From Halorussus caseinilyticus (GTDB taxonomy: Archaea > Halobacteriota > Halobacteria > Halobacteriales > Haladaptataceae), in NCBI RefSeq assembly GCF_029338395.1, contig NZ_CP119809.1, forward strand, positions 1,054,001 to 1,118,000: a DNA stretch of 64,000 bases, in the 5' to 3' direction. The notes under the pieces were generated by a model that saw only the letters and a list, made by a program, of their open reading frames with translations, was not told the DNA's origin and did no database searches. A program made the translations under genes and the position numbers. Numbering within the stretch: position 1 is the first letter of the stretch; each line of letters opens with the position of its first letter. Below, one piece after another: positions 42,773 to 45,866 of this stretch.

Positions 42773-42845
42773 TTTAAGTAGTTCTGGCGACAACGGATAG
42801 ATACGACGGGAAGACGGTCGCGTTCTACCGGACTCACGCTCGCTA
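42773..42845 (+). promoter_or_regulatory. Promoter-like repeat, copy A
   Basis: TTTAAGTA (42773-42780) is followed by TTCTGGCGACAACGGATAGA and a conserved tail ending in CGTTCTACCGG and CGCTAG. The TATA-like box predicts a start near ATACGA about 27 bp on. It differs from inverted copy D at only six of the first 64 positions. Confidence 0.6.
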
Positions 42846-42900
42846 GCCGCCGGTGCGTCGGTCGTCTCCGGACGGAACGAGTCGGCGGCCCGGACGTTCG

Positions 42901-42980
42901 TTTAAGTTCTTCCCGCGACAAGGAGTAGATACGAGCGACGTGCGGTCTCGTTCTGACGGAGTTGTCCCGACACTCGCTAG
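42901..42980 (+). promoter_or_regulatory. Promoter-like repeat, copy B
   Basis: TTTAAGTT then a diverged core (CGCGACAA, GTAGATACGA) and the same tail features (TCTCGTTCTGACGGA, CACTCGCTAG). It starts 128 bp after copy A. Confidence 0.55.
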
Positions 42981-43019
42981 TCTTTAGGACGGACTGCGGG
43001 AGTGCGAGACGCGCGCTGA

Positions 43020-43085
43020 TTTAAGTACTTCTGGCGACAACGGGTAGATACGAGGGAAGTTCGCCGGTTCACTTCTGCGGTTCGT
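43020..43085 (+). promoter_or_regulatory. Promoter-like repeat, copy C
   Basis: TTTAAGTACTTCTGGCGACA and GGTAGATACGA are conserved. The predicted start near 43050 lies about 18 bp outside the 3' end of the minus-strand gene, so a transcript would be antisense to it. It starts 119 bp after copy B. Confidence 0.55.
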
Positions 43086-43851
43086 CTCTTTCGGCCCACT
43101 GACCAGTCTCCTCGGCACCGCCTTCCTCGCTCCGACGAGCGTCGAGACTCGGCAGGTTGGGGTCCCGATAGGGGTTGCGGCCGTACACCGCCTCTTCGAG
43201 GTCCTGCTCGCGGAGTTGGTCTTTCAGGACGCGCCGGAGGCGGTTCAGATTCGTGACGTTCAGACCGTGCTTGGCGACGAGTTCTGAGAATCGTTCTTCG
43301 TCGGTAATCGACCGGAACTGGTCGTAGAGGTCGTCGAGTTCGGCGGGCGACAGGTCCCGAATCCACTCTTGGTCGTGAAGTCCCAGATAGTGTTCGCGCT
43401 CGCGGTCCACGACGTGGCGGATGACCACCAGCGCCACCTTCGGAATCGCGCGCTGACTCCCGAACGCCGTCAGGTCCAAGTCCGACACGATGCCGACCAC
43501 CCGGTCGCGTTGCCACGGCGTCAGCGACAGGTCGTTGCACAGGGCGTGGGCGATGCGGAGTTTGTCGAGGCGGTGCATCCGGGAACTGTGCCCGGCCATC
43601 GCGGAGTGGCGTTCCTCGTGGAGTCGGCGAACGCTGTCGGGAAGGTCGGCGTCGGGCGACTCGGCCCGGCCGATTTGGGTCGCGCTCGGCGTCACCGGTC
43701 CCCACTGGCGGACCGTCTGGTCTCGCTGGAGGTCCGCCCGGCCGACCGAACCGTCGCCGGGACGCTGGCTAAGCGGTCTCTCGGCGTCTCGGTCGTCGGG
43801 CACTGGCCCGGATTCCCACGACGGCGTCTGGTCGGTCCACCCCTCGGTCAT
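43069..43851 (-). CDS. Haloarchaeal RNA polymerase epsilon-subunit-like protein
   Basis: The 260-residue protein has a disordered N terminus (about 1-85), then a conserved helical core (HSSRMHRLDKLRIAHALC, LTPWQRDRVVGIV, DLTAFGSQRAIPKVALVVI). I recall this core from haloarchaeal proteins annotated as DNA-directed RNA polymerase subunit epsilon, and the core has a cyclin/TFB-like helical look; both points are memory or inference. It may modulate transcription. Two promoters precede it: a palindromic GTTTAAAC giving a leaderless message, and the more distant repeat copy D. Its 3' end faces copies A-C. Confidence 0.65.
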   Translation of the reverse strand: MTEGWTDQTPSWESGPVPDDRDAERPLSQRPGDGSVGRADLQRDQTVRQWGPVTPSATQIGRAESPDADLPDSVRRLHEERHSAMAGHSSRMHRLDKLRIAHALCNDLSLTPWQRDRVVGIVSDLDLTAFGSQRAIPKVALVVIRHVVDREREHYLGLHDQEWIRDLSPAELDDLYDQFRSITDEERFSELVAKHGLNVTNLNRLRRVLKDQLREQDLEEAVYGRNPYRDPNLPSLDARRSEEGGAEETGQWAERDEPQK

Positions 43852-43876
43852 TACTGTCGTGTAGTCGGCGGGGGTA

Positions 43877-43884
43877 GTTTAAAC
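43877..43884 (-). promoter_or_regulatory. Proximal TATA box of the epsilon-like gene
   Basis: The palindrome GTTTAAAC is centred about 29 bp before the ATG at 43851, predicting a leaderless transcript. Confidence 0.6.
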
Positions 43885-43934
43885 ATGTGCCTCGGAACCC
43901 CGCCGGGGCGACTGGACTCGGCCCGGAGTCGCCG

Positions 43935-44009
43935 CTATCGAAAACTGAGGCCGGTAGAACGCTGGCGTCTCCCCGTCGTATCTATCCGTTGTCGCCAGAA
44001 GTACTTAAA
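43935..44009 (-). promoter_or_regulatory. Promoter-like repeat, copy D (inverted)
   Basis: On the minus strand TTTAAGTACTTCTGGCGACA is followed by the same core and tail as copy A. It points toward the epsilon-like gene and would give a leader of about 130 nt. Confidence 0.6.
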
Positions 44010-44059: not shown

Positions 44060-44671
44060 CTACTCGCCGCGGTCGGTGTCGTGGAACTCCGCGCGCAGGT
44101 CCTCGTCGTCGAGGTCGGTCGCGGTGTTCGAGAGTTGGGCGCGGAGTTCGGCGAGTTCCGAGACGAGTTTCTCGTACTCGTCGTTCGCGTCGAGTTCCGC
44201 GGGACTCTTCTTGGTCTCCAGTGCGGCCTTCTTGTTCGCCAGCGAGAGGAACCGTTGCATCTGGGCGTCGTAGGTCGAGCGCCGGAGGAGCGTCTCGACG
44301 GTTTCGAGCAACTCCTCGGCCTCCGAGACCGGTTTTTCCAGATACGCGTCGAACCCGAGGTCGAGGATGTCGAAGTCGGGTTCGACCGCCGAGACGAGTG
44401 CGACCCGACAGGTGAGACCCTCCTCGTGAATCCGGTTCAGTACGTCCTCGCCCGAGAGGTCCGGCATCCGCCGGTCGAGCAGAACCACGTCCACTTCGTC
44501 GTCCAGTTTTTCGAGGGCTTCGGACCCGCTGTACGCCGTTCGGACGTGATAGTCGTCGTCCAACCACTGGGCATAGGCGTCGGTAATCGGCTTCTCGTCG
44601 TCTACGATAAGTACTGTGGCGTCGTTGGGCATAGTTCCGGTTTCGCTTGCGGTCTGTAGTGATTCACTCAT
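44060..44671 (-). CDS. Response regulator receiver with HalX domain
   Basis: The 203-residue protein has a receiver domain (VLIVDDEKPITDAY, phosphoacceptor Asp in VVLLDRRMPDLSG, and K in EKPVS) and a C-terminal HalX helical domain (about 135-200). HalX domains occur in archaeal signalling proteins and may dimerise or sense. No histidine kinase is adjacent. A TTAA box at about 44684-44687 is too close to the ATG at 44671; an internal ATG at 44632 (MPNDATVLIVDDE) fits the promoter better. Confidence 0.88.
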   Translation of the reverse strand: MSESLQTASETGTMPNDATVLIVDDEKPITDAYAQWLDDDYHVRTAYSGSEALEKLDDEVDVVLLDRRMPDLSGEDVLNRIHEEGLTCRVALVSAVEPDFDILDLGFDAYLEKPVSEAEELLETVETLLRRSTYDAQMQRFLSLANKKAALETKKSPAELDANDEYEKLVSELAELRAQLSNTATDLDDEDLRAEFHDTDRGE

Positions 44672-44765: not shown

Positions 44766-45866
44766 TCAGTCGGTCTCCTGCTCGAACGGCGATTTGGCCG
44801 TCTCGGGTTCGTATCCGCTCAGGAACACGAGGTTCCCTCGGCCGACCTGTACCCGAGTGACGAGTCCTTTCTCCTCCATCTTCGAGAGTTTCCGACTGAC
44901 GGTAGATTTCGACCAGTCGGTCTCCTCGGTCACGTCGGCCTGCTTCATCCGGCCGCCGTACTGCGTGAGCAGTTCCCGGATTCTGTCCTCGTCGGTCAGC
45001 ATCGCCTCCTCGGGCAGGTCGTCTACGCCCGAGTTCGCGCCCGACTGCACCGCCGACGGGGACGATTCCCCGTCTTCGCTTGCCCTCGGCGAGTCGGACC
45101 GACCTGCCGCGCTCGGCGAGTCGGAACCGCTCTCGCCAGAGAACACGCCCGACAGCGAGTCCCGAATCGAGGTGAACAGGCCGCTCTCGGACTCCGGAAC
45201 CGAGACATCCGTGTCGTGAGACTGAACGTGGTCGCTGGTCACGCTTCGGTCGCCGTAGGTTTCGGCGACCGACCACTCCTCGCCGTCGTCCGAGACTTCG
45301 ACAACCGCGTCGAAGAGGGTCTTCAGCGTGTTGACCGTCTCCTCGTCGTGGATGTCCGGGTCCATGTGGTAGAAGCCGATGGCGTCGGCGGCCTGCACCC
45401 GGTGGGTGAGGATGTGGAGGTATCGGAACGCGGTGTCGAAGTTCACGTACTCAAGCAGGACGGTCAGCGTCTGGACCGAGACGACCGTCTGGTTCCCGTT
45501 GCCCTTCCACCGAGTCAACTGCTCGCTCAGCGGTGCGATGATGTCCATCGGTTGGTTCGGGTCTACCCGAGCGACGGACACGTCCGACGGGAGTTCGGTG
45601 CTGGCGTCTTCGCCGGACTTCTCTACGGTGTTGGCGTGGATGAACGCGAGTTCCGCCGGGAAGTCCTCGACATGGGCCTTCCAGTCGGCTATCCACGTCT
45701 CGGGTGGTGGCGTGTACGTCACTGCGGCGACGTTCGTCTCGTGCGGTGGTGTCGTGGAAGCGAGCAGTTCGAGGCACGCTCTGTTGCCGGTCGGCGTCAG
45801 CGGTGCCAGCAGGAGTACGTTCGAGGACTGCTTCAACTGTCTCCTGTCGGATGTGTCGATGTTCAT
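44766..45866 (-). CDS. KaiC-like (DUF7504-type) protein with C-terminal winged helix
   Basis: The 366-residue protein begins with a RecA/KaiC-like domain lacking a Walker A motif (SSNVLLLAPLTPTGNRACLELL, LTVLLEYVNFDTAFRYLHILTHRVQAADAIGFYHMDP). A disordered Ser-rich linker (about 205-285) follows, then a winged helix (EDRIRELLTQYGGRMKQADVTEETDWSKSTVSRKLSKMEEKGLV). It looks like a ligand- or phosphorelay-responsive DNA-binding protein. It sits just upstream of the HalX regulator gene on the same strand, 95 bp away. Confidence 0.78.
   Translation of the reverse strand: MNIDTSDRRQLKQSSNVLLLAPLTPTGNRACLELLASTTPPHETNVAAVTYTPPPETWIADWKAHVEDFPAELAFIHANTVEKSGEDASTELPSDVSVARVDPNQPMDIIAPLSEQLTRWKGNGNQTVVSVQTLTVLLEYVNFDTAFRYLHILTHRVQAADAIGFYHMDPDIHDEETVNTLKTLFDAVVEVSDDGEEWSVAETYGDRSVTSDHVQSHDTDVSVPESESGLFTSIRDSLSGVFSGESGSDSPSAAGRSDSPRASEDGESSPSAVQSGANSGVDDLPEEAMLTDEDRIRELLTQYGGRMKQADVTEETDWSKSTVSRKLSKMEEKGLVTRVQVGRGNLVFLSGYEPETAKSPFEQETD

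Follow-up and report, generated by a model that had tools for sequence, protein, structure and literature searches.

In the genome of the haloarchaeon Halorussus caseinilyticus, several copies of one promoter-like repeat surround a gene for an RNA polymerase subunit epsilon-like protein, raising the question of whether the gene product acts at these sites. Epsilon has been known from purified haloarchaeal polymerase since the 1980s. In Halobacterium, epsilon (rpoeps, OE_1279R of Halobacterium salinarum) is reported to purify together with RNA polymerase, and polymerase containing it to transcribe native templates efficiently; the subunit is still called enigmatic (PMC8305020).

A sequence-only reading of the window (the whole 64,000-nucleotide stretch that we analyzed) had placed four repeats at this locus, and all four are present (copies A to D, Table 1). 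As that reading held, copies A and D are identical at all but 6 of 64 positions (58/64), and pairwise comparison of the 34-nt cores gives 32-33 matches among A, C and D. Copy B, previously given as a clean match to the repeat string, is more diverged, with a core that agrees with those of A, C and D at 27, 29 and 28 of 34 positions, respectively. R1, a covariance model that uses sequence alone and was made from relatives, recovers A to D plus one more copy; the genome-wide E-values of the four range from 9e-12 to 7e-10, placing the family far beyond chance. We also looked for random scatter of the repeat through the genome, and found none: with a broader model that takes in variant copies (R2, E<=1, scoring a limited number of candidates per genome as in all our genome-wide scans), the 4.39-Mb genome holds exactly five modules, four at epsilon and one 5' of menA-menC. 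A BLAST search of the same genome with copy A as query matched A, C and D only. No known RNA families were found at the locus.

Table 1. Features of the epsilon locus and the fifth module copy (window coordinates unless a contig is given).
Feature	Position	Strand	Remarks
Copy A	42773..42826	+	TATA box TTTAAGTA, downstream element TTCTGGCGACAA; convergent to epsilon gene
Copy A start-site box AGATACGA	42799-42806	+	start site predicted
Copy A GTTCT	42822-42826	+	
Copy B	42901..42954	+	more diverged (TTTAAGTTCTTCCCGCGACAAGGAGTAGATACGA); convergent to epsilon gene
Copy B GTTCT	42950-42954	+	
Copy C	43020..43053	+	closest convergent copy, 49 nt beyond epsilon stop
Epsilon gene	43069..43851	-	260 aa; predicted cyclin fold, ~residues 86-220
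Proximal second TATA (TTTAAAC)	43877..43883	-	~31 nt 5' of epsilon ATG; putative function
Copy D	43956..44009	-	sense, upstream of epsilon; TATA begins 158 nt 5' of ATG
Copy D GTTCT	43956-43960	-	
Copy D predicted start	43976-43983	-	leader ~125-132 nt
HalX-type response regulator	44060-44671	-	just upstream of epsilon
DUF7504/DUF7343 winged-helix protein	44766-45866	-	just upstream of epsilon
Fifth copy	C1:1303890-1303928	-	TATA ~95 nt 5' of first possible menA start; menC next

We derived a consensus from 37 copies in 13 epsilon loci, and later from 119 non-redundant copies: TTTAAGTnnTTCTsGysAyAAnGGnwAGATAyGr, usually followed by GTTCT, with an information content of ~49 bits. The module comprises a TATA box, a downstream element, a start-site box and a TTCT at positions 44-54; information falls to background within ~10 nt upstream of the TATA box, and the core is conserved across families, whereas the flanks are not. 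The downstream element (TTCTsGysAyAA) begins 2 nt past the TATA box and contains a nearly invariant dyad, TTnT-N4-AnAA. A TATA box and a start-like block at fixed spacing occur in 119 copies. Applying the spacing of halovirus HF2, in which the start follows 26 nt after the beginning of the TATA (PMC8707807), we expect transcription to begin in AGATAyGr, and the TTCT element would therefore lie within the first 30 transcribed bases. The likeness that had been seen to continue into the leader (CGTTCTACCGG) is real and general, with TTCT at positions 44-54 in 74 of 119 copies versus 2-10 in same-size control windows.

We surveyed 292 haloarchaeal genomes, calling epsilon with alignment A2; 123 contain a strong match and 13 only weak ones. 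At E<=1e-4, R1 detects the motif in 107 genomes, all 107 with epsilon, and in 0 of the 169 without a strong epsilon match (Fisher value 5e-63, ignoring phylogeny). Families f2, f3, f5 and f7 each include genera with both and genera with neither. Among the 16 epsilon genomes lacking an R1 match, R2 recovers eight (E<=1e-3), a partly circular recovery given that some variants were built into R2; the absence of R2 matches from 22 epsilon-less genomes, even at a lax cut of E<=0.05, is not circular. Two more epsilon genomes, of genus g73, have a visible variant 5' of epsilon. Variants retain the TATA box and downstream element, while the start box becomes TAGTGAG or similar. With variants included, the module occurs in 117 of 123 epsilon genomes; the six without it are five of genus g39 plus G180. 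The module is very probably a promoter class functionally tied to epsilon, as judged by comparison across genomes. Moreover, a promoter confined to epsilon-bearing genomes suggests that epsilon recognizes a small promoter set of its own, and is not a general part of the polymerase.

Epsilon loci of several genera share a common layout. Across 43 loci we counted 52 upstream sense copies, often in tandem at ~130 nt and with the nearest usually 105-221 nt before the start codon; 23 convergent downstream copies, in Halorussus, Haladaptatus and Halomicrococcus, with the nearest 49-148 nt past the stop; and nine same-strand downstream copies, in genus g26 and a few others. No copy lies inside the epsilon gene or upstream in divergent orientation. 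The counterpart of copy C, kept in most Halorussus and in Haladaptatus and Halomicrococcus, mostly lies 101-148 nt past the stop and twice at ~50 nt. This recurrence gives comparative support to the earlier view of the repeats as promoter-like, with D aimed at the epsilon gene and A to C at its 3' end. Tandem copies within one locus are often alike beyond the core. Most loci of Halorussus and Haladaptatus have a second TATA (TTTRAACTA) ~31 nt 5' of the ATG, the position that a leaderless epsilon mRNA would call for, and copy D therefore probably adds a leadered promoter to it. In Haloferax, some genes are known to be transcribed from a leaderless as well as a leadered start (PMC4983044). As read from its translation, a HalX-like regulator seems to adjoin epsilon in locus L046 too. 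In genus g26 of family f8 (L030-L036, L064), several genomes contain three or four epsilon paralogs, some with a same-strand module copy 27-77 nt past the stop.

Beyond epsilon, the module recurs at a few other genes. It lies 5' of menA-menC in six of seven Halorussus genomes, and in Haladaptatus epsilon itself is near men genes, the order in L020 being menB, epsilon, menA, menC. Family f4 genomes have it repeatedly at a GNAT-thiE pair, at a cupin gene next to mptA, and in a position pointing toward the 3' end of an mgtE-like gene (names read from translations). The seventh Halorussus genome (G274; probably the same species as Halorussus halophilus, plasmid record NZ_CP044526.1) has its sole detected epsilon gene on a contig of plasmid size, and the search gave no menA promoter copy like that of the other six; the target may have been lost after epsilon replacement.

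On plasmids of H. halophilus, H. vallis and Halococcus dombrowskii, the module keeps its position relative to the epsilon gene, although the neighboring genes differ; a Halocatena plasmid epsilon gene showed no module at the cut-off used. Distant epsilon-like proteins (20-30% identity) form groups, each with a diverged promoter version of its own next to the gene, placed upstream in sense, downstream on the same strand, or upstream in divergent orientation. The pattern of a TATA box plus ACAA/CCAAC gave 14 matches in 19 paralog loci versus 4 in 296 kb of control sequence. A model from nine paralog promoter versions (R3) finds exactly one match each in 13 of 19 searched genomes with epsilon-like genes and none in 20 genomes without them; in G225, which was left out of model building, the match adjoins an epsilon-like gene. 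A promoter that stays beside a gene family and diverges with it is our strongest argument that the family may act on the promoter. The link between gene product and sites, offered as an inference in the sequence-only reading, now has strong comparative backing. Separately, L092-L110 and L178-L181 (e.g. L093:1328-1600, + strand; L098:1471-1700, + strand) represent cassettes on plasmids or small contigs, each with an epsilon-like gene and one cognate promoter. In two cassette groups, the promoter appears to drive a stretch that is rich in GC and predicted to be structured (z -1.3 to -3.4); it resembles a conserved non-coding RNA and has no Rfam match.

What kind of protein is epsilon? The assignment follows from homology to proteins so named: the product is 75% identical to a Halorussus vallis plasmid protein and 68-74% identical to three more, all annotated in RefSeq as DNA-directed RNA polymerase subunit epsilon. 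Pfam and NCBIfam searches gave no named domain, and no sequence relatives were found among solved structures. An AlphaFold model made with 33 homologs has a core pLDDT of ~90 over residues 86-220. Structure comparison of this model ranks TFIIB first (Z 10.6, r.m.s.d. 2.3 Å over 94 residues), then Brf2 (Z 10.2) and CDK cyclins (Z ~9), in agreement with a first model, though helical models can reach cyclin-like Z scores of around 10. Foldseek alone gave no significant E-value. At the sequence level, hhalign assigned epsilon-TFB homology a probability of <1%, and a TFB repeat HMM scored epsilon no better than shuffled sequences; one distant paralog matches PF00382 (E 0.025). The aligned family has no CxxC motif indicative of a zinc ribbon, and the model shows one predicted cyclin-like domain, not two repeats. 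An epsilon-TFB alignment made by eye looked good and failed every sequence test, so that the fold comparison alone speaks for a relation. Overall, we assign epsilon a predicted cyclin fold and do not claim it as a TFB. The genome also encodes two diverged TFB-like proteins (G000:C5:56511-57038 and C1:3235215-3235760), 39-45% identical to the first TFB of our alignment and candidates for serving special promoter classes.

The N-terminal cyclin repeat of Brf2 and TFIIB contacts DNA just downstream of the TATA box (PMC4671959). Because the downstream element begins 2 nt past the TATA box, where such contacts would fall, and given the biochemistry of the epsilon polymerase (PMC8305020), an epsilon-dependent, autoregulated promoter class is the simplest account of the locus. 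In this model, the repeats constitute a dedicated promoter class served by epsilon-carrying RNA polymerase. Together with TBP and TFB, epsilon would contact the downstream element, the start-site box and possibly the GTTCT near the beginning of the transcript. Copy D would let epsilon express its own gene from a leadered promoter, besides the ordinary leaderless one; A to C would let it direct transcription that runs into its own message from the 3' end, a feedback that would damp epsilon expression; and elsewhere epsilon would activate a handful of genes, here menA-menC. We judge this full statement, of epsilon as a promoter-selectivity factor with self-control and a small regulon, to be evenly balanced between right and wrong, because activation and repression are both possible. 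Several observations count against it: a dimeric regulator would fit the dyad no worse than a TFIIB-like monomer, the sequence tests gave no homology to TFB, the cyclin-like Z scores are of a size that helical models can reach, and six epsilon genomes lack the module. We advance still more tentatively, as somewhat likelier to fail than to hold, the idea that epsilon is the founding member of a set of haloarchaeal TFIIB-like cyclin-fold selectivity factors, not a general subunit, each encoded beside its own cognate extended promoter, with plasmid paralogs having separate, insulated specificities.

The same data can be read with the sign reversed, with epsilon as a negative autoregulator that sits on the dyad between TATA box and start site, keeping the promoters off or poised. 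The most constrained element, with its invariant dyad, lies at a usual place for a repressor, and the co-occurrence and co-divergence evidence fits equally. However, epsilon polymerase is reported to perform better on native templates, not worse (PMC8305020), and the TATA box, start-site box and GTTCT are also conserved, beyond what an operator needs. We consider this reading unlikely, if a serious contender. We think it rather unlikely that a different, unlinked regulator of the same distribution binds the module, with epsilon merely one of its targets. Haloarchaea have many winged-helix regulators, a dimeric protein of this type would fit the dyad, and the motif also precedes unrelated genes. 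Such a regulator would have to occur in exactly the epsilon genomes, however, while the plasmid epsilon genes have the module in common but no neighbor, and distant epsilon-like genes keep their own adjoining promoter version, at one copy per genome.

It is improbable that the purpose of the array lies in RNAs, with A to C yielding antisense or small RNAs that act on epsilon mRNA, even though convergent copies are kept in three genera, antisense transcription is common in haloarchaea (PMC6523106, PMC4983044), and relatives of the promoter family seem to drive structured regions in plasmid cassettes. The module also lies in sense orientation 5' of epsilon and menA; sequence 3' of the nearest convergent promoter cannot be aligned between genera, as a conserved stand-alone small RNA would require; and the leaders at A and D fold no better than shuffled sequences (z +1.3 and -0.07). 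The earlier suggestion that A to C are genes of specific stand-alone RNAs accordingly gives way to conserved convergent transcription as the more economical reading. It is very improbable that an ordinary promoter was simply duplicated not long ago and has no special factor. The identity of A and D and the similarity of tandem copies past the core are in keeping with this, but conservation across families is limited to the core, copies turn up at matching positions in independent genera and also at menA, and the motif is missing from 169 epsilon-less genomes.

If epsilon does act as a promoter-selectivity factor, the archaeal TBP/TFB system would gain a sigma-like level of promoter choice, epsilon would be linked to menaquinone synthesis through menA, and plasmid factor-promoter pairs could serve as tools. 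Five candidate sites, linked to the gene, unique in the genome and recurring in related species, make the epsilon question experimentally simple. In searchable papers we found no description of a promoter family, regulon, fold or autoregulation of epsilon, and the core strings of the module occur only in unrelated papers.

Among known systems, TFIIB/TFB and Brf2 come closest in structure, with the predicted epsilon fold nearest to their N-terminal repeat; unlike TFIIB/TFB, epsilon has one cyclin-like domain, no zinc ribbon and no detectable sequence homology. The module's element lies directly 3' of the TATA box, as does the BREd, where Brf2 and TFIIB make base contacts (PMC4671959), but is longer and reaches the start site. 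The class I intergenic repeat promoters of halovirus HF2 likewise form a family of ~58-bp repeats in a single genome, and each joins a TATA promoter to conserved sequence about the start site; they are viral, however, active in Haloferax volcanii and have no known cognate factor gene beside them (PMC8707807). Compared by the strings printed in that paper, CTTTAAGTC and the downstream CGTCTNNTAGAG, they are unlike TTCTsGysAyAA..AGATAyGr (PMC8707807). We considered a viral origin of the module and set it aside, with no match in phage records and no exact pattern match in viral contigs. Haloarchaeal rRNA operons also have tandem TATA promoters with repeated surroundings, a likeness that the sequence-only reading had pointed out. 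Kinship is not supported: those of this genome belong to a different sequence family (CCGATGCCCTTAAGTGTA and similar) with no module copy upstream. Their repeats lie at L006:1050-1300 and in L007, upstream of both 16S rRNA genes. Bacterial ECF-type sigma factors are typically encoded behind their own cognate promoter and control a small regulon. Epsilon is not a sigma factor, and its module resembles an archaeal TATA promoter and is paired with a predicted cyclin fold, but by analogy a factor gene preceded by its cognate promoter and serving a small regulon is the arrangement that the epsilon locus would represent.
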